A stretch of 32,669 nucleotides of DNA from NCBI GenBank assembly GCA_005885405.1, contig VAYN01000006.1:6433-39101 (forward strand), in the 5' to 3' direction. The notes under the pieces are model-generated. The model was not told the DNA's origin and searched no databases. It saw only the letters and a program-made list of their open reading frames with translations. This stretch comes from Actinomycetota bacterium (GTDB lineage: Bacteria; Actinomycetota; Thermoleophilia; Solirubrobacterales; 70-9). The position numbers were made by a program, and so were the translations under genes. The first letter of the stretch is position 1; each line of letters opens with the position of its first letter. Positions 16,970 through 32,293 of this stretch are shown piece by piece.

Positions 16970-17551
16970 ATGCAGGTGCGGAGAGAGAAGGCGGAGCGAC
17001 TGGCCGACGAGGAGCTGATGCCCCTCGTCGGCGGCAAGGACCCGGAGGCGTTCGAGGTTCTCTTCGACCGCCACGGCGGCGCCGCCTTCTCGCTCGCGTA
17101 CCGGATCGTCGGCGACCGCGCCGCCGCCGAGGAAGTGACGCAAGAGGCCTTCATCTCGGTCTGGCGCAGCGGTGCTCGCTTCGACGCGGCCCGCGGCAGC
17201 GTCCGCTCCTGGCTGCTCAGCGTCGTCCGCAACCGCGCGATCGACTTCCTCCGCAGCCGCGCCGGCAAAGCACCGAAACTGACTTTCGACGACGACGCCG
17301 TCCTCGAGCACCGCCCGGCAGCGGAGCGGACCGAGGAGGAGGCGCTGCGGCGCGAGACCGCCGGCGAGCTGCGCGGCGCGATCGGCAAACTGCCCGGCGA
17401 GCAGTCGAAGGTGATCGAGCTCGCCTACTTCGGCGGCTTCAGCCACTCGGAGATCGCCCAGATGCTCAACCTGCCGATGGGGACCGTGAAGGGACGGATG
17501 CGGCTCGGGTTGGAGAAGATTCGCGGCGAGCTAGCGGAGGGATTGGCATGA
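16970..17551 (+). CDS. ECF-type RNA polymerase sigma factor (SigK-like)
   Basis: The 193-residue protein has sigma region 2 (FEVLFDRHGGAAFSLAYRIV, then AAAEEVTQEAFISVWR, about 32-72). Region 4 (LPGEQSKVIELAYFGGFSHS and IAQMLNLPMGTVKGRMRLGL, about 143-190) carries the helix-turn-helix that reads the -35 box. There is no sigma 1.1 or region 3, as expected for ECF factors. The next gene, overlapping by 4 bases, encodes an RskA-type anti-sigma factor, so this factor is held inactive until a membrane-sensed signal. In mycobacteria the SigK/RskA pair controls secreted antigens. Here the adjacent ferritin-like genes are plausible targets. The start at ATG 16970 has only a weak ribosome binding site. 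Confidence 0.9.
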   Translation: MQVRREKAERLADEELMPLVGGKDPEAFEVLFDRHGGAAFSLAYRIVGDRAAAEEVTQEAFISVWRSGARFDAARGSVRSWLLSVVRNRAIDFLRSRAGKAPKLTFDDDAVLEHRPAAERTEEEALRRETAGELRGAIGKLPGEQSKVIELAYFGGFSHSEIAQMLNLPMGTVKGRMRLGLEKIRGELAEGLA

Positions 17552-26308: not shown

Positions 26309-26381
26309 GGCGAGGTAGCTCAGTTGGTAGAGCACACGACTGAAAATCGTGGTGTCGCGGGTTCGAATCCCGCCCTCGCCA
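26309..26381 (+). tRNA. tRNA-Phe (anticodon GAA)
   Basis: A complete 73-base cloverleaf is visible. The acceptor stem GGCGAGG pairs with CCTCGCC, and the D arm is GCTC...GAGC. The anticodon stem CACGA/TCGTG encloses the loop CTGAAAA, with GAA at 26342-26344. A 5-base variable loop precedes the T arm GCGGG-TTCGAAT-CCCGC, and the discriminator is A at 26381. The CCA end is not encoded. The stop of the convergent DUF7144 gene begins at the next base. Confidence 0.98.
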
Positions 26382-26774
26382 CTACTCGTCCCAGCGGGCG
26401 GTGAGCTGGTAGATGATCGTCACGTCGAGCAGGATGATCAGGAATGCCCAGAGCGGCGCCAGGGGGAACCAGACGATCTGGGCGATCGCGTTGATCGTGA
26501 CGAAGAAGATCGCCAGGACCCGGGCGGTCGGGCTTCCGGCGAAGAGCATCATGCCGGTGATGGCGACGATCGAGCCGAGGATCAGGTGGATCCAGCCCCA
26601 GAGGGTGACGTCGGCGACGAGGACTCCATGCCCTCCGACCACGACGACGTCGTTGTTGAGGACGGCGGCCAGGCCCCACAGCGCGTCCAGCGATCCGATC
26701 AGCAGCAGCAGCACTCCGGTGAAGACCGTCCAGCCCGACGGCTGACGTTCTGAAGCCCTTCGTGAACCCTCCAT
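26382..26774 (-). CDS. DUF7144-type small integral membrane protein
   Basis: The 130-residue protein has four hydrophobic segments: WTVFTGVLLLLIGSLDALWG, then HLILGSIVAITGMMLFAG, VLAIFFVTINAIAQIVWF and LWAFLIILLDVTIIYQL. The pattern and the LWAFLIILLDVTIIYQL ending match the DUF7144 (SPW-like) family common in actinobacteria. Its role is unknown. ATG 26774 has AAAGGA 7-8 bases upstream and is preferred to the longer open frame from 26840, which would begin inside the promoter. A good promoter lies at 26812-26840. Transcription runs toward the tRNA-Phe gene and converges on it with no gap. Confidence 0.8.
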   Translation of the reverse strand: MEGSRRASERQPSGWTVFTGVLLLLIGSLDALWGLAAVLNNDVVVVGGHGVLVADVTLWGWIHLILGSIVAITGMMLFAGSPTARVLAIFFVTINAIAQIVWFPLAPLWAFLIILLDVTIIYQLTARWDE

Positions 26775-26906: not shown

Positions 26907-27527
26907 ATGAGCGGAAACTTGAACCAGAGCGAAGAGCGCGACGAGCGCCTGCTGCGGCGGGCGCGGGCGGCGCGTGCTGCCGGCGACGTCGCGGGGGAAC
27001 GGGAGGCGATCACGCGGCTGATCGAGCCTTACTGGAACTGGGGGCGCTCGATCGCCTACGGCAAGATCGGCGGCGTCGACGACCCCGCGGCCGACGCCGA
27101 GGAGATCGCCCAGGACCTGCTGCGGCGGCTGGCGCAGCTGCTGCGGACGAAGCTCGAGTTCGACACCTCCTTCCGCGGGGTCGCCGCCGCCAATCTGAAC
27201 TTCGCGATCAAGGACTACTGGCGACGCTCGGCGCGGACCCGGTCGAAGCCGGTCGACCCCGGCGAGCTGGTCGCGATCGACCCGCGTCCGCCGGTCCCGT
27301 CCGCAGGCGAAACAGCGGCCGACCTCGACTCCTACTTCGCGGGGCTCAGCGAGCGCGAGCAGGCGCTTGCCCACGACCGCCTCGTTCTCGACCTTTCCCC
27401 GGCCGAGATCGCCCAGCGGCATGGGATGAAACGCGGAGCCGTCGACACCGCCTGGCACCGGATCGTGAAGAAGATGCGGGAGAACGCGCCGACAGGTGTA
27501 AGAGAGCGCGATCGGGGGGCGGTGTAG
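26907..27527 (+). CDS. Sigma-70-family (ECF-like) RNA polymerase sigma factor
   Basis: The 206-residue protein has a region 2-like part (LIEPYWNWGRSIAYGKIGG and DAEEIAQDLLRRLAQLL, then GVAAANLNFAIKDYWRRSAR, about 38-110). A Pro-rich linker leads to region 4 (FAGLSEREQALAHDRLVLDL and PAEIAQRHGMKRGAVDTAWH, about 144-190), whose helix-turn-helix would contact -35 DNA. The D-W/Y-R-R end of region 2 is typical. The N-terminus is uncertain. GTG 26868 and GTG 26883 are in frame, but ATG 26907 has AAGGCGGG close by. No anti-sigma gene follows. Instead come two unknown genes, an ImmA/IrrE protease and sbcDC, all in tight sequence, so activity may be set by regulated proteolysis. Confidence 0.75.
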   Translation: MSGNLNQSEERDERLLRRARAARAAGDVAGEREAITRLIEPYWNWGRSIAYGKIGGVDDPAADAEEIAQDLLRRLAQLLRTKLEFDTSFRGVAAANLNFAIKDYWRRSARTRSKPVDPGELVAIDPRPPVPSAGETAADLDSYFAGLSEREQALAHDRLVLDLSPAEIAQRHGMKRGAVDTAWHRIVKKMRENAPTGVRERDRGAV

Positions 27528-27531
27528 GCGT

Positions 27532-27975
27532 ATGGCAAAGTTCGATCCCATCGAGGAGAGAGCGATCGAAATGCTCGACGACCTGCGGCTCGAGGCGGTC
27601 CGTGCCGAAACCGTCGTCCACGACGACAAGCGCTTCGAGTTCGTCCTCTGGACCCTCTGCCTCCGCGGCGTGCCGGTGATCGAGCGGGTCTGCCGCAGCC
27701 GCGGCGAGGCACGCGGGCTCGGCGAGGAGGAAATCGAGCTGGCGACCGAGGACGCGGCGGCGCGGATGCTGCTGCGCCTCTCCCGACCCGACCCGCAGCC
27801 GCAGATCCACGCCCTCGCCGCCGAGGTCGCCGCCGCCTGCATCGACCGCGCCTGGCCGCAGCAGCCGAAACCGCCGCGGCTCTCGGGGCGCACACCCCGG
27901 TTGCGCCTGATTGAGGGGCTCGACGAGGCGATCGAAATCGGCCAGGTCCGGCCGAACGACTGGGAGACCTTATGA
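27532..27975 (+). CDS. Unknown protein, possibly a sigma region 2 relic
   Basis: I do not recognise a family for this 147-residue protein. It is mostly helical and charged. The middle part (EEEIELATEDAAARMLLRLS, then PQIHALAAEVAAACIDRAW, about 64-108) has the rhythm of sigma region 2. There an acidic E-x-x-x-x-x-x-x-A-x-x-x-x-L-x-R-L helix is followed by I-x-x-L-A-x-x-V-A-x-x-x-x-D-R. No region 4 follows; the tail is Pro/Arg-rich and ends in a short acidic segment. It could be a sigma mimic, an anti-sigma-like partner, or unrelated. It starts 4 bases after the sigma gene and overlaps the next gene by 4 bases, so it is surely expressed with them. Confidence 0.7.
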   Translation: MAKFDPIEERAIEMLDDLRLEAVRAETVVHDDKRFEFVLWTLCLRGVPVIERVCRSRGEARGLGEEEIELATEDAAARMLLRLSRPDPQPQIHALAAEVAAACIDRAWPQQPKPPRLSGRTPRLRLIEGLDEAIEIGQVRPNDWETL

Positions 27976-28622
27976 GCATCGGCGACGAGACCTTCGAGCG
28001 AGCTCTCGAGCAGGCGCTCGACGACCTGCGGGCGGGCGAGGAGAAGCCGATCGAGTCCTACCTGCGCCTCGTCCCGGAGGAGGACCGACCGCAGCTGAGC
28101 CAGATGCTCGCCGACATCCTCCTCGCCCGCGGGCCGGGGGCGCTCCTGAGCGACGAGACCGGCAGCGAGGGCTACAAGCGCGCGCTCGCGGTCGTCGAGG
28201 AAGTGCTCGGAAGCCGCGGCACCGCGGGCATCCTGCCGGGGGGCTTGAAGGCGATGCGGAACGCGCGCGGGATCGAGCCCGACGCGGTCGTCGGGAAGCT
28301 GGCCGCGGACTTCGAGGTGGAGGGGGAGGAGGGACGCCAGGCGCTGGCCCGCAACTACCACCGCCTCGAGACCGGGACCCTGCTCGGGTCGAAGCTCTCG
28401 CGCCGCCTACTCGACTCCCTCGCGCGGATCTTCGACATCGACGTCGCCGATGTCCTCGCCGCCGCGCGTCCAGCTGGCGACGGCCCGTCCCTGCGCAGCG
28501 TCCCGGCGATGGGACGGAGCGGCGGCGACCGCCCAACGCCCCCGTCGCGCTCGGGTGAGCGCCTTCCCGACCCGGAGGTCGAGCTCGTCGAGCGGCTCTT
28601 CCATGGCGGCCCGGACGCTTGA
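27972..28622 (+). CDS. XRE-like helix-turn-helix regulator, probable partner of the ImmA/IrrE protease
   Basis: This 216-residue protein has an N-terminal helical part (FERALEQALDDLRAGEEKPI, then SYLRLVPEEDRPQLSQML). From about residue 91 to 165 there is a segment that follows the XRE pattern: LKAMRNARGIEPDAVVGKL (helices 1-2), ARNYHRLETGTL (recognition-helix position, usually I-S-R-L-E-R-G), and RRLLDSLARIFDIDVADVL (the usual closing helices). A Pro/Ser/Arg-rich tail ends in VELVERLFHGG. XRE regulators encoded next to ImmA/IrrE proteases are often cleaved by them (ImmR in ICEBs1, DdrO in Deinococcus). The 20-base overlap with the downstream protease gene supports such a pair. The HTH call is by eye and the insertion between helices 2 and 3 is unusual. 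Confidence 0.65.
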   Translation: MSIGDETFERALEQALDDLRAGEEKPIESYLRLVPEEDRPQLSQMLADILLARGPGALLSDETGSEGYKRALAVVEEVLGSRGTAGILPGGLKAMRNARGIEPDAVVGKLAADFEVEGEEGRQALARNYHRLETGTLLGSKLSRRLLDSLARIFDIDVADVLAAARPAGDGPSLRSVPAMGRSGGDRPTPPSRSGERLPDPEVELVERLFHGGPDA

Positions 28623-29184
28623 GCCGACCGCAGCCGCGCAGGCGCTGCTGCGCGACTTCGAGGGGCGCTACGACGTCGGCGAGGCGCCGCCCGTCCCGGT
28701 CGAGCGCATAGCGAGCGCCCTGCTCGGCCTCTTCGTCGACGAAGCCGACGACATCCGCACCCTCCCGGGCGCCCCGGCCGACCAGGGCCGCCTCTCGGGG
28801 ATGCTCGACGCCGAGGAGATGATCGTCTGGGTCGATCGCGGCGAGGCGCGGCGAAGCCCAGGGCGCCGCCGGTTCACGATCGCCCACGAGGTCGGCCACT
28901 TCGTCCTCCACGTGCCCGTCGTCCACAAGCTCTTTCCGGACCGGGCCGTCGACATCAAGGAGATCGACGAGGGCTCTTCCGCTGCCAAGCTCAGCAAACA
29001 TCGTGGGCGCGAGCGCGAGGCCAACATCTTCGCCTCGGAGCTGCTGATGCCCGAGCCGCTGGTCCGCGCGCAGGCCACCGCGACCGGGTTCAACCTGCCG
29101 GCGCTGGCGAAACGCTTCGAGGTCTCGGTTCCGGCGATGCGGCTGCGCCTGCGCCTGCTGAAGCTGCTACCACCTTTGGCGTGA
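28603..29184 (+). CDS. ImmA/IrrE-family zinc metallopeptidase
   Basis: The 193-residue protein has the family's catalytic motif FTIAHEVGHFVLH, with zinc ligands His95 and His99 and catalytic Glu96. The third ligand motif is EREANIFASELLMP (Glu139). Between them is a basic, variable insert. A C-terminal helix-turn-helix-like segment (LPALAKRFEVSVPAMRLRLR) is usual for COG2856 proteins, where low-affinity 'A-x-x-F-x-V-S' helices help recognise targets. IrrE in Deinococcus cleaves DdrO after DNA damage, and ImmA cleaves ImmR. ATG 28603 is chosen because the longer frame from 28450 is Ser/Arg-rich and antisense-like. It overlaps the XRE-like gene by 20 bases and sbcD by 4 (GTGA). Confidence 0.9.
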   Translation: MAARTLEPTAAAQALLRDFEGRYDVGEAPPVPVERIASALLGLFVDEADDIRTLPGAPADQGRLSGMLDAEEMIVWVDRGEARRSPGRRRFTIAHEVGHFVLHVPVVHKLFPDRAVDIKEIDEGSSAAKLSKHRGREREANIFASELLMPEPLVRAQATATGFNLPALAKRFEVSVPAMRLRLRLLKLLPPLA

Positions 29185-30299
29185 AAATCGTCCACCTCTC
29201 AGATTCCCACCTCGGCTGGCGGGATCTGCACCACACCGACGCCGAGGGACACAACCTGCGGGAGCAGGACGTCTACGACGCCTTCGCCCAAGCGGTCGAC
29301 CGGGTGCTCGAGCTCGAACCGGCGGTAGCCATCCATTCCGGTGATCTCTTCGAGGGCTACCACCCCTTCTCGGCGGCGCTGGGGGTGGCGCTCGACCAAG
29401 TCGAGCGGCTGCGCGCGGCGGGGATCGATTTCGCCGTCATCGCCGGCAACCACGAGACCCCGCGGGTGCGGGCGATCGCGCACCCGTTCTCGCTGCTGGA
29501 GCGCTTCGGCGTCCATGCCGTCCACGGGGAGCCGCGCCGGCTGCGCTTCGGCGACCTCGCCGTCACGGCCGTTCCCCACAGCAACGACCCGGAGGCGATG
29601 GCGGGCTGGATCACCGCGGCGGAGCCCGACGCGGACGCTCGCTTCAACGTCCTCGTCGCCCACGCCGGGCTCGAGGGTCTCGCCCGCGTCGGCGCCGGCG
29701 AGCCGGGCGCGGTGGAGCTGCCGGGGGAGCTGCTCGAGCAAGTCGCGAGCTTCGACTACATCGCCCTCGGCCACCTCCACCAGCTCGACCGGCCGCGGGT
29801 CAACGCCGTCTACCCCGGCTCGCTGGAACGACTGAACTGGGGGGACCAGGCCCGCCGCAAGGGGATCGTCGAGGTCGACCTCGACGCCGAGCCGCTCGAC
29901 GACGCCTTCCTCACCGTGCACGAGATCGAGGGCCGGCCGCGCACGCGCCTCCCCGCCCTTGATGCCAGCAAAGTCGACGACCTCACCAAAGCGATTTCCC
30001 GGCTGGCAAAGACGAAGGGCCTGGAGGGGGCGATCGTCAAAGTCCCGATCGCCAACGTCAGCTTCGAGAAGTACGGAGCGATCGACCGCCGCAGGATCGG
30101 CGAGGCGTTCGCCCACTGCCTCCACCTCGAGCTCGAGCCCGAGTTCGTCGAAGCCGGTTCCGGCCGGCCGCAGCCGGCCGCCCCCGCGGAGCTGCGCGAC
30201 TTCCTCTCCCGGCGCGTCCCCGCCGGCGTCGAGGCGGAGGTTTTCGTCGGCCGCGGCGAGACCTACATGACCCGCGCGGCGGAGGACATCGGCGCGTGA
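29181..30299 (+). CDS. sbcD: SbcD/Mre11-type DNA exonuclease subunit
   Basis: The 372-residue protein carries the calcineurin-like phosphoesterase series of Mre11: HLSDSHLGW (Asp8, His10), HSGDLFEGYH, AGNHETPR, LVAHAGLEG and LGHLHQ. A capping domain follows. Mre11/SbcD with SbcC opens DNA hairpins and trims ends at double-strand breaks using Mn2+. Start GTG 29181 overlaps the protease stop (GTGA), and its own stop overlaps the sbcC start in the same way. The length is in the range of bacterial SbcD. Complex formation with the next gene product is expected. Confidence 0.93.
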   Translation: MKIVHLSDSHLGWRDLHHTDAEGHNLREQDVYDAFAQAVDRVLELEPAVAIHSGDLFEGYHPFSAALGVALDQVERLRAAGIDFAVIAGNHETPRVRAIAHPFSLLERFGVHAVHGEPRRLRFGDLAVTAVPHSNDPEAMAGWITAAEPDADARFNVLVAHAGLEGLARVGAGEPGAVELPGELLEQVASFDYIALGHLHQLDRPRVNAVYPGSLERLNWGDQARRKGIVEVDLDAEPLDDAFLTVHEIEGRPRTRLPALDASKVDDLTKAISRLAKTKGLEGAIVKVPIANVSFEKYGAIDRRRIGEAFAHCLHLELEPEFVEAGSGRPQPAAPAELRDFLSRRVPAGVEAEVFVGRGETYMTRAAEDIGA

Positions 30300-32293
30300 G
30301 GCTGCTGCGCCTGGAGGCGGAGAACTTCCGTTCCTTCGCCGAAGTCGACCTCGACCTCAACGCCTCCGGCGTCTTCGCGATCACCGGCGTCAACGGCGCC
30401 GGCAAGAGCACGCTCTTCGCCGCGATCGAGTGGGCTCTCTACGGCGGCCGGGGCGGGCCCGGCGCCACCCGGGTCGCGCGCGAGGGAGTGAAGCGGGAGG
30501 AATGCCAGGTCACCCTTGAATTCGAAGTCGGCGGCCGCGTCCTCCGCGCCACCCGCATCGACGGCAAGGACGCCACGCTTATCGACGTCGCCGGCGAGGA
30601 GCAGCTCGCAAACGGGCTCAGCAGCACCTCGCGCGAGGTGGCGGTGCGCCTTGGCCTGACCAGGGAGATGTTCCGCGGAACCTTCTACGCGCCCCAGAAC
30701 GAGGTCGAGGCGCTCGCCGACAAAGACCCACGCAAACGCAAAGACCAGCTCGAGCGCCTGCTCGGGATCCGCCACTTGCGCCGGGCGGTCGAACTCGCCG
30801 AGCTCGACGCCCGCGAGCAGGGCCTGGTTCTGGAGGGCCTGCGCAGCGAGGCGCCCGACGTCGACGAGCTCAAAGCCGAAGTCAAACAGCGCGAGAAAGA
30901 GGCGCGCGACGCGGCGCCCGCGGTGAAACGGCTGAAGAAAGAGATCGCCGCCGGCGAGACGAGGCTGAAAAAGACGAACGCGGATATCGACAAGCTCGCC
31001 GCCCAGGTCGGCAAACACGCGTCGCGGCAGCTGGAGGCCGAGCGGGCCGAGGGTGACTTCAAGGTGAAGAAGGAGGGCCTCGAAGGCAGGGAGGAGCAAC
31101 TGCGGACGGCGGTGGCGGCAAAGGTGGAACTGACCGAGCTCGAGGCAGCGCTGCGGGGGAGCGCGGGTCTCGACGCGCCCGGCGCTTTGGAGGCAGCCGA
31201 CGACCGCCTGGGAGAGCTGCGCGACCAGCGCGCCGAGGCAAAAGCCGAGCTCGCCCACTCCGAACGGCACCGCGAGGCTTTGGTAGGCGAGGGGGAGTCG
31301 GGGGTCTGCCCGACCTGCCACCAGGAGCTTTCGGGGACGGTCGAGGAACTGATCGCCGATTTCGACAAGGCGATCGCCGCCGCTCGTCGGCGCCACGACG
31401 AGCTCGATCGCGAGCTCGTTGCGCTGGAAACGGCAATCAAGGCCGCGCTGGAGCAAAGGGAGGAGATCACCCGCCGGATCGCCGTCGCGCGCGAGCAGGC
31501 GGCCGGCGCGGAGCTGCTTGAAAAGCAGGTCAAGGCGCAGAGCAAGGAAGTCGAGCAAGCCGCCAAAGAGGTCGAGAAGCTGCGCAAGAGCGCCGACAAA
31601 ATCGCCCCGGAGCCGGGGGCGCAGGAGGAGATGAGCGCCGAACGGGACCGGCTGAGCGAGGTGCTGGACGTCGCTCGCGAAGCCTTGGAAGAGGCAAACC
31701 GGAAGGCGTCGGCTGAGTCCGAGGCGGTCGCCGCCGCGCGCAGCCGGCTCAAAGACGCGAGCAAACTGAAAAAGCGGATCGACTCCGAACGCCGCGAGCT
31801 CGAGCTCCGCGCCGCCGTCGCGGGGGCGCTGGAGGAGTACCGCGAGGAGGCCTCGCGCCGCGCCCGGCCGATGGTGGAAGCGGAAGCCTCGCGGCTGCTG
31901 CGGCAAATCACCGAAGCGGCCTACCCCCGTGTCCGCCTGACCGAGGACTACTTCCTCGAGATCGCCGAGGGCCGGGACTTCTACCTGAGCAAACGCTTCT
32001 CCGGCGGCGAGCAGGACCTCGCCGCCCTCTGCCTGCGCCTGGCACTCGCCCGGACGCTTGCCGAGCAGCGGGGGACCGAACAGAGCTTCGTCATCCTCGA
32101 CGAGGTCTTCGGCAGCCAGGACGTCGGCCGTCGCCGGATGCTGATGGAGCAGCTGATCGAGCTCTCCCGCGGCGAGTTCCAGCAGATCTTCGTCATCTCC
32201 CACACCGACGACATCGTCGATCAGTGCTCGCTGCACATCGCCGTCACCCGCGAGAACGGGATAAGCCGGGTCGACGAGCGGGCGGGTTACTAG
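30296..32293 (+). CDS. sbcC: SbcC/Rad50-type ATPase subunit, short form
   Basis: The 665-residue SMC-like ATPase starts LLRLEAENFRSFAEVDLDL and has Walker A GVNGAGKST (31-39). A Q-loop-like APQNEVEAL follows. Two coiled-coil arms (about 170-330 and 350-520) are separated by a zinc hook C-P-T-C (Cys338, Cys341). The ABC signature FSGGEQ lies at 568-573 and Walker B VILDEVF has Asp602-Glu603. Rad50/SbcC bridges DNA ends and gates the SbcD nuclease. E. coli SbcC has 1048 residues, so the arms here are much shorter. The GTGA overlap with sbcD couples their translation. It closes the operon that begins with the sigma factor. No clear terminator follows. Confidence 0.93.
   Translation: MRLLRLEAENFRSFAEVDLDLNASGVFAITGVNGAGKSTLFAAIEWALYGGRGGPGATRVAREGVKREECQVTLEFEVGGRVLRATRIDGKDATLIDVAGEEQLANGLSSTSREVAVRLGLTREMFRGTFYAPQNEVEALADKDPRKRKDQLERLLGIRHLRRAVELAELDAREQGLVLEGLRSEAPDVDELKAEVKQREKEARDAAPAVKRLKKEIAAGETRLKKTNADIDKLAAQVGKHASRQLEAERAEGDFKVKKEGLEGREEQLRTAVAAKVELTELEAALRGSAGLDAPGALEAADDRLGELRDQRAEAKAELAHSERHREALVGEGESGVCPTCHQELSGTVEELIADFDKAIAAARRRHDELDRELVALETAIKAALEQREEITRRIAVAREQAAGAELLEKQVKAQSKEVEQAAKEVEKLRKSADKIAPEPGAQEEMSAERDRLSEVLDVAREALEEANRKASAESEAVAAARSRLKDASKLKKRIDSERRELELRAAVAGALEEYREEASRRARPMVEAEASRLLRQITEAAYPRVRLTEDYFLEIAEGRDFYLSKRFSGGEQDLAALCLRLALARTLAEQRGTEQSFVILDEVFGSQDVGRRRMLMEQLIELSRGEFQQIFVISHTDDIVDQCSLHIAVTRENGISRVDERAGY

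Follow-up and report, generated by a model that had tools for sequence, protein, structure and literature searches.

The window examined here is a stretch of 32,669 nucleotides from an Actinomycetota bacterium of the class Thermoleophilia (GCA_005885405.1, contig VAYN01000006.1, positions 6,433 to 39,101), and its region 26907-32293 carries six adjacent open reading frames on one strand, numbered here genes 1 to 6. They specify an extracytoplasmic function (ECF)-type sigma factor, a small protein with a predicted sigma fold, an XRE-like protein with a helix-turn-helix (HTH), a CapP-like M78 metallopeptidase, and an SbcD/Mre11-type and SbcC/Rad50-type pair (Table 1). A first-pass annotation made from the sequence alone had described six codirectional genes with junctions of +4, -4, -20, -4 and -4 bases, and the coordinates confirm this run.

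Table 1. Features of the six-gene operon and of its flank in the window (aa, amino acids)
Feature	Coordinates	Strand	Basis
tRNA-Phe (GAA), edge of variable site	26309..26382	+	ARAGORN; tRNA-Phe at matching site in G350 (L236)
Gene 1, ECF-type sigma factor, 206 aa	26907..27527	+	TIGR02937 above cut-off; family profile resembles ECF sigma structures
Gene 2, 147 aa, predicted fold sigma region 2 alone; six-gene form only	27532..27975	+	
Gene 3, XRE-like protein, 216 aa	27972..28622	+	AlphaFold2 model, HTH fold matches, conservation
Parts of gene 3 product: N-terminal helical, ~1-80; HTH, ~85-165; linker; conserved C-terminal tail, 205-216			
Gene 4, M78 metallopeptidase, CapP-like, 193 aa; HEVGH and EREAN motifs	28603..29184	+	
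Gene 5, SbcD/Mre11-type nuclease; phosphoesterase motifs intact	29181..30299	+	
Gene 6, SbcC/Rad50-type ATPase, 665 aa; CPTC zinc hook; shorter than relatives	30296..32293	+	

Conservation of the operon

The same six genes, in identical order, are present in three further genomes: G087 and G162, of the same class, and G426, of another class of the phylum. Their junctions from gene 1 to gene 6 are -4, -1, -8, -4 and -4 in G087; -4, -4, +16, -1 and -4 in G162, where an earlier in-frame ATG would turn +16 into -8; and -1, -4, +52, -4 and -4 in G426. In all four operons the overlap is 1 or 4 bases between gene 2 and gene 3 and between the protease gene and sbcD, and 4 bases between sbcD and sbcC, leaving zero intergenic space before sbcD and sbcC. 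Genes 2 to 6 of G087 and G162 were matched in order; the sigma gene of G087 was matched at 2.5e-11, and that of G162 was assigned by its place and by a family profile whose seed included that gene. In pairwise comparisons across the operons the M78 protease (54-60% identity) and SbcD (46-50%) are the best conserved products, and the sigma factor (25-35%) is the least conserved. Four copies rule out a chance gene order, and the six-gene run is a conserved unit; the anatomy first proposed for it, in which an M78 protease and an XRE-like protein make up the switch and a dedicated sigma factor is attached, is supported in all four genomes. A promoter or operator common to the operons was looked for, and none was found.

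The putative switch proteins

The gene 1 product scores 45.0 bits against TIGR02937 (sigma70-ECF; curated cut-off, 42.9), and its family profile matches ECF sigma structures among Protein Data Bank (PDB) profiles. By that cut-off and by its regions 2 and 4 it belongs to the ECF sigma factors, its Pfam matches to sigma r4_2 and r2 falling below their own cut-offs. Gene 2, at first listed as unknown, gave no Pfam match up to an E value of 1 and no NCBIfam match up to 0.1, and hhalign offered no sequence support for kinship with sigma factors (probability 1.2%, from an alignment of 3 rows); its structure model is similar to sigma region 2 and has no region 4, which predicts a sigma region 2 standing alone as a protein. 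The two-part sigma systems SigO-RsoA of B. subtilis and gp55-gp33 of phage T4 include a region-2-only sigma-like chain such as is predicted for gene 2; gene 2 differs in sitting beside an ECF sigma factor and an XRE-like protein.

Gene 3 itself has no credible Pfam match (two at E 0.09), and HTH_31 was matched at E ≤ 0.01 by 8 of 30 members of its family, gene 3 not among them. Its AlphaFold2 model (predicted local distance difference test score, 84.2) consists of N-terminal helices, an HTH, a linker and a tail helix. Residues 80-182 of the model match XRE/cI folds, including the N-terminal domain of CapH and DdrO, and the HTH is predicted to be of this cI/CapH/DdrO type; a Foldseek search returned nothing at E ≤ 0.001, and no known fold was listed for the N-terminal part, which was barely tested. 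The C-terminal tail is conserved. CapH-type partners combine an HTH with a C-terminal dimerisation domain; gene 3 has the XRE-type HTH of such a partner, with fold matches confined to residues 80-182, but differs from CapH in its N-terminal helical part and C-terminal tail.

The gene 4 product scores 58.3 bits against Peptidase_M78 (cut-off, 22), and its HExxH motif is intact, as are the motifs of genes 5 and 6. The first-pass annotation had called it an IrrE protease. Its best padloc model is capP (1.7e-25) and its best structure match is CapP (2.3e-16, with IrrE orthologues behind at 2.5e-8 and 3.3e-8); judged by these comparisons, it is nearer CapP than IrrE. PprI has a GAF-like C-terminal domain after its peptidase and HTH parts (PMC10904395), whereas the M78 match of gene 4 reaches residue 184 and leaves no room for such a domain. 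Plasmids bearing a gene 4 relative amounted to 2 records, both below 60% identity.

The SbcCD pair

Gene 5 scores 39.2 bits against Metallophos (cut-off, 21.5), and gene 6 passes AAA_23, SMC_N and SbcC_Walker_B; both score below the curated cut-offs of TIGR00619 and TIGR00618, respectively. Together they carry the phosphoesterase motifs of Mre11 and the Walker A, zinc hook, signature and Walker B of Rad50, and they share the order and overlap of sbcD and sbcC with SbcCD elsewhere. They differ from other SbcCD in that the operon SbcD is a clade of its own and Rad50 is short in the window copy. In a tree of SbcD (38 rows) the four operon sequences form one clade (support, 98), and this clade groups with SbcD sequences from other families in the phylum, not with the class's other SbcD. 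No relative of gene 5 was found in viral contigs.

Wadjet and Lamassu are prokaryotic defence systems in which SMC/Rad50-like complexes act (PMC10586767). Gene 6, whose best padloc match is LmuB (2.6e-35), resembles these in encoding a Rad50/SMC-like ATPase in defence-type neighbourhoods, but it is paired with a nuclease of the Mre11 type. Genes 1-5 gave neither a Jet-like match nor, at E ≤ 0.1, a match to the LmuA effector that accompanies LmuB in Lamassu.

Distribution and the wider triad

Relatives were sought in a class sample of 299 genomes and a phylum sample of 356. The genome counts are lower bounds: the initial round scored some candidates per genome (10 for the class searches with M78 and gene 3, and 8 for the phylum search with the gene 3 profile). 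Relatives of the M78 protease occur in at least 88 of the 299 class genomes, and relatives of gene 3 (single-sequence search) in at least 44. Gene 5 matched 41 class genomes, strongly in three, its own, G162 (2e-106) and G087 (3e-97), with the next match at 4e-20; in the phylum sample it matched 50 genomes at E ≤ 1e-20, and, its own aside, G426, with all six genes, was far the best (5.5e-95). The six-gene cassette is rare and accessory. That the six genes stay together, the check proposed in the first-pass annotation, holds in four genomes from four families and two classes, but it mostly fails for the M78 homologues of the class; SbcDC joined to M78 throughout the class is ruled out, the SbcDC-bearing form being present in 3 genomes versus at least 88 for M78.

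What recurs more widely is the triad of sigma factor, XRE-like protein and M78 protease. We tallied 83 regions (the window, two named loci and 80 further regions), covering most, not all, of the M78 places; the tally is partly circular, in that its profiles were seeded from rows picked by gene order. These regions hold 67 gene 3 relatives, one locus being counted twice (L110 and L178 overlap). A sigma gene lies directly upstream on the same strand in 65 of the 67, and an M78 gene within 2.5 kb in 63 (52 on the same strand, 11 on the opposite); among the 81 M78 genes in the regions, 17 have no gene 3 relative nearby. Partly independent checks came from PDB profiles for the M78 and sigma families and from Pfam on 26 sigma rows (Sigma70_r4_2 in 18, Sigma70_r2 in 9). 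On account of the sigma and M78 linkage, the conserved core is the triad, mostly without SbcCD, and its tightest bond is that of the sigma factor with the XRE-like protein; in ordinary triads gene 2 is missing and gene 3 adjoins the sigma gene. Because a sigma gene is so regularly linked to it, we infer that the gene 3 product may be an anti-sigma factor; to our knowledge, no M78 partner is known to be one. In the phylum sample the gene 3 profile matched at least 20 genomes: 15 belong to the class, one is G426 (1e-41), and four others match at 3e-4 to 8e-4. Since these matches fall mostly within the class, the triad is likely at home there, and G426 likely received the six-gene form.

The neighbours of triads vary (by eye): glutamate synthase genes in genus g89, restriction or methylase genes elsewhere. 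Repair genes stand by triads as single cases, identified partly by eye (RecD2 in eight regions of genus g5; AddAB in G122). Enrichment of repair genes near triads was not shown when 97 near proteins (26 regions, one per genus) were compared with 45 far ones (21 regions): AAA_19 was found in 5 of the 97, and UvrD-helicase in 2 of 97 near versus 1 of 45 far, figures that cover the best 25 of 114 and 25 of 71 families. The comparison excluded L110, L005, the regions with all six genes, and genes under ~200 aa; L120:6235-8829 (AddB-like by eye), which lies between the limits, was added by hand and biases the comparison toward enrichment. PF20208 (ARPP-1) was seen in 4 of the 97 near proteins (alignment A5).

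Mobility and genomic site

In a tree of genes 3 and 4 (51 rows), 13 of the 14 rows of family f1, the family of the window, fall in one set (support, 97) with seven rows from two further families of the same order. The window row is not in this set but in a clade (100) with G087 and G162, which belong to two other families. With G426 added and two long rows (L198 and L201) removed, the four operon rows still form one clade (100). An approximately unbiased test rejects holding all 14 f1 rows together (p 5e-7); the split had been seen beforehand, and better evidence comes from the branch that separates the window row from the other 13. G162 also carries an ordinary triad (L195), placed elsewhere in the 51-row tree. 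In these trees the regulator and SbcD each form one clade crossing host families.

The window operon lies between tRNA-Phe and a conserved gene beyond the window, which shares 88.6% identity, over the part compared, with its counterpart in G350, the closest of 12 genomes of the genus as judged by this flanking gene. In G350 the tRNA-Phe site is occupied by other genes, by eye a kinase and a LanC-like lanthipeptide synthetase (L236:9730-13532); a 70 aa gene adjoins them, by eye the peptide. No tRNA-end repeat of at least 12 bases was found within the variable stretch, and no integrase was recognised by eye between tRNA-Phe and the next conserved gene. As for the other copies, in G162 an E1-E2/ThiF gene precedes the operon and a JetC1-like gene follows it; the G426 copy has a type III methyltransferase nearby, and the G087 copy an AbiV-like HEPN gene (25.0 bits, below the cut-off of 27.1), a PDC-M41A protein and DUF5131; resolvase and transposase pieces were seen by eye near the G087 and G426 copies. 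Such surroundings are those of a defence or mobile cassette.

Coiled-coil proteins with C-terminal sequences alike by eye are encoded upstream of the operons of G087 (L093:11999-12715) and G162 (L094:6387-6836); neither has a Pfam match, that of L093 has no padloc match, and none was seen in the window. In G426 (L270:7008), ~80-110 bp upstream of the first start of the sigma gene, there is a perfect inverted repeat, TAGCACTC-N9-GAGTGCTA, which we take to resemble an HrcA box (CIRCE). No groES or groEL was recognised by eye near it; this copy may be under heat-shock control via the putative CIRCE-like repeat. Similar boxes lie upstream of ordinary triads at L122:1989, L189:5510 and L212:481, and L122 has two divergent genes of 112 and 545 aa, lengths that would fit groES-groEL. 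A second sigma-like gene in the window (16970-17551), followed at 17548 by an anti-sigma-like gene (by eye), is unrelated to the operon.

Parallel arrangements elsewhere

In Thermogemmatispora tikiterensis, of another phylum (L010), genes for a sigma factor, a 206 aa protein and an M78 protease lie ahead of genes for a NurA-like protein, a 611 aa protein that looks HerA-like by eye, SbcD, an SbcC-like protein and DUF3375. The 206 aa protein did not match gene 3 by hhalign (probability 1.1%), and the next best among 47 genomes of that class, G339 (66% identity over residues 28-133), had no sigma, SbcD or SbcC match in 19.5 kb. A metagenome-assembled genome of the Actinomycetes (L005) has gene 3-like and gene 4-like genes before a YhaO/YhaN-like pair (by eye), and in G157 a triad lies ~3.4 kb from NurA-(HerA-like)-SbcD-SbcC on the opposite strand. 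These three arrangements suggest that switches of this kind may have become linked to Mre11-Rad50-type complexes on several occasions.

A proposed sigma-coupled switch for SbcCD

CapH and CapP control adjacent immune operons, and the operon resembles them in that its M78 protease is closest to CapP, its HTH matches include the N-terminal domain of CapH, and its switch genes precede a DNA-acting pair in defence-type neighbourhoods; it differs in the sigma gene attached to nearly all members of the gene 3 family (65 of 67) and in its SbcCD cargo. From IrrE/PprI and DdrO of Deinococcus it differs in being operon-borne, mobile and sigma-linked. We file the cassette as CapH/CapP-like control with an added sigma layer and SbcCD cargo; a full-text literature search found no description of such an operon, which is weak evidence of absence, as subscription papers were mostly outside its coverage.

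We regard the operon, with a probability of roughly 0.55, as a horizontally moving accessory cassette that makes the Mre11-Rad50 (SbcCD) nuclease on demand through a CapH/CapP-like, sigma-coupled switch. In the resting cell the gene 3 product would bind DNA through its HTH and keep the operon off, and it might also hold its cognate sigma factor (gene 1, perhaps with gene 2) via its N-terminal part or C-terminal tail. Single-stranded DNA reportedly activates CapP, which cuts CapH (PMC13373217), and PprI, which cuts DdrO (PMC10904395); by analogy, a build-up of single-stranded DNA at a break, a stalled fork or on invading DNA might activate the CapP-like protease, which would cleave the gene 3 product and free the DNA and/or the sigma factor. 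The freed sigma factor would then have its own coupled operon transcribed, sbcDC included, and the resulting burst of SbcCD would cut DNA ends, hairpins or ends blocked by protein. Its most likely target would be invading DNA, with the damaged chromosome as another possible one. A stricter version is more tentative: a cytoplasmic M78 protease, activated by single-stranded DNA, would cut an XRE-fold anti-sigma factor and free the ECF sigma factor, helped by the stand-alone region 2, so that DNA breakage would directly trigger a promoter programme reserved for a mobile defence nuclease of Mre11-Rad50 type.

The same switch might instead govern a Deinococcus-like chromosomal repair regulon, with SbcCD serving host double-strand-break repair and not defence, a possibility that we consider unlikely though worth weighing. 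SbcC1D1 of M. xanthus increases after mitomycin C (PMC12288472), the Mre11-Rad50 motifs are intact, and the source genome (93% complete) has no SbcD above the TIGR00619 cut-off of 77.65 bits; of its two matches, gene 5 reaches 42.8 bits and the other, on C3, is weak at 23.5 bits. The missing other copy is not telling, however, because SbcD above that cut-off is patchy in the class (53 of 299 genomes), and a mobile cassette in 3 of 299 genomes, at a variable site and with defence-type neighbours, speaks against such a regulon. Defence is favoured over repair because of this rarity, mobility and neighbourhood; the self-contained damage response envisaged at the outset is unproven as stated, the mobility and neighbours making defence at least as likely.

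It is improbable that the operon is an ImmA/ImmR-like mobile-element switch, or an addiction module, with SbcCD as maintenance cargo and sigma factors serving the element. M78-XRE pairs govern the induction of integrative and conjugative elements, the variable site adjoins a tRNA gene, and resolvase and transposase pieces accompany two other copies; against this stand the lack of an integrase recognised by eye up to the next conserved gene and of a long tRNA-end repeat at the far side, and the viral contigs free of gene 5 relatives. Equally improbable is that genes 2 and 3 form a split sigma factor (region 2 plus a promoter-reading HTH), with gene 1 the ordinary sigma factor and the protease turning this split factor off, not on, which would suit the region 2-like model and the gene 2/gene 3 overlap in all four operons but not the ordinary triads that dispense with gene 2, nor the hhalign result.

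The known M78-XRE switches (IrrE-DdrO, ImmA-ImmR and CapP-CapH) relieve repression, whereas in the cassette described here the switch protein is tied foremost to a sigma factor. This tie would link protease-based damage sensing with ECF sigma control and could give the class a damage response apart from LexA. SbcCD, commonly seen as housekeeping repair, is here carried by a regulated cassette that is mobile and has defence-type neighbours. If the anti-sigma version of the switch is true, the three-gene core would serve this class of bacteria as a general damage switch working through sigma factors.

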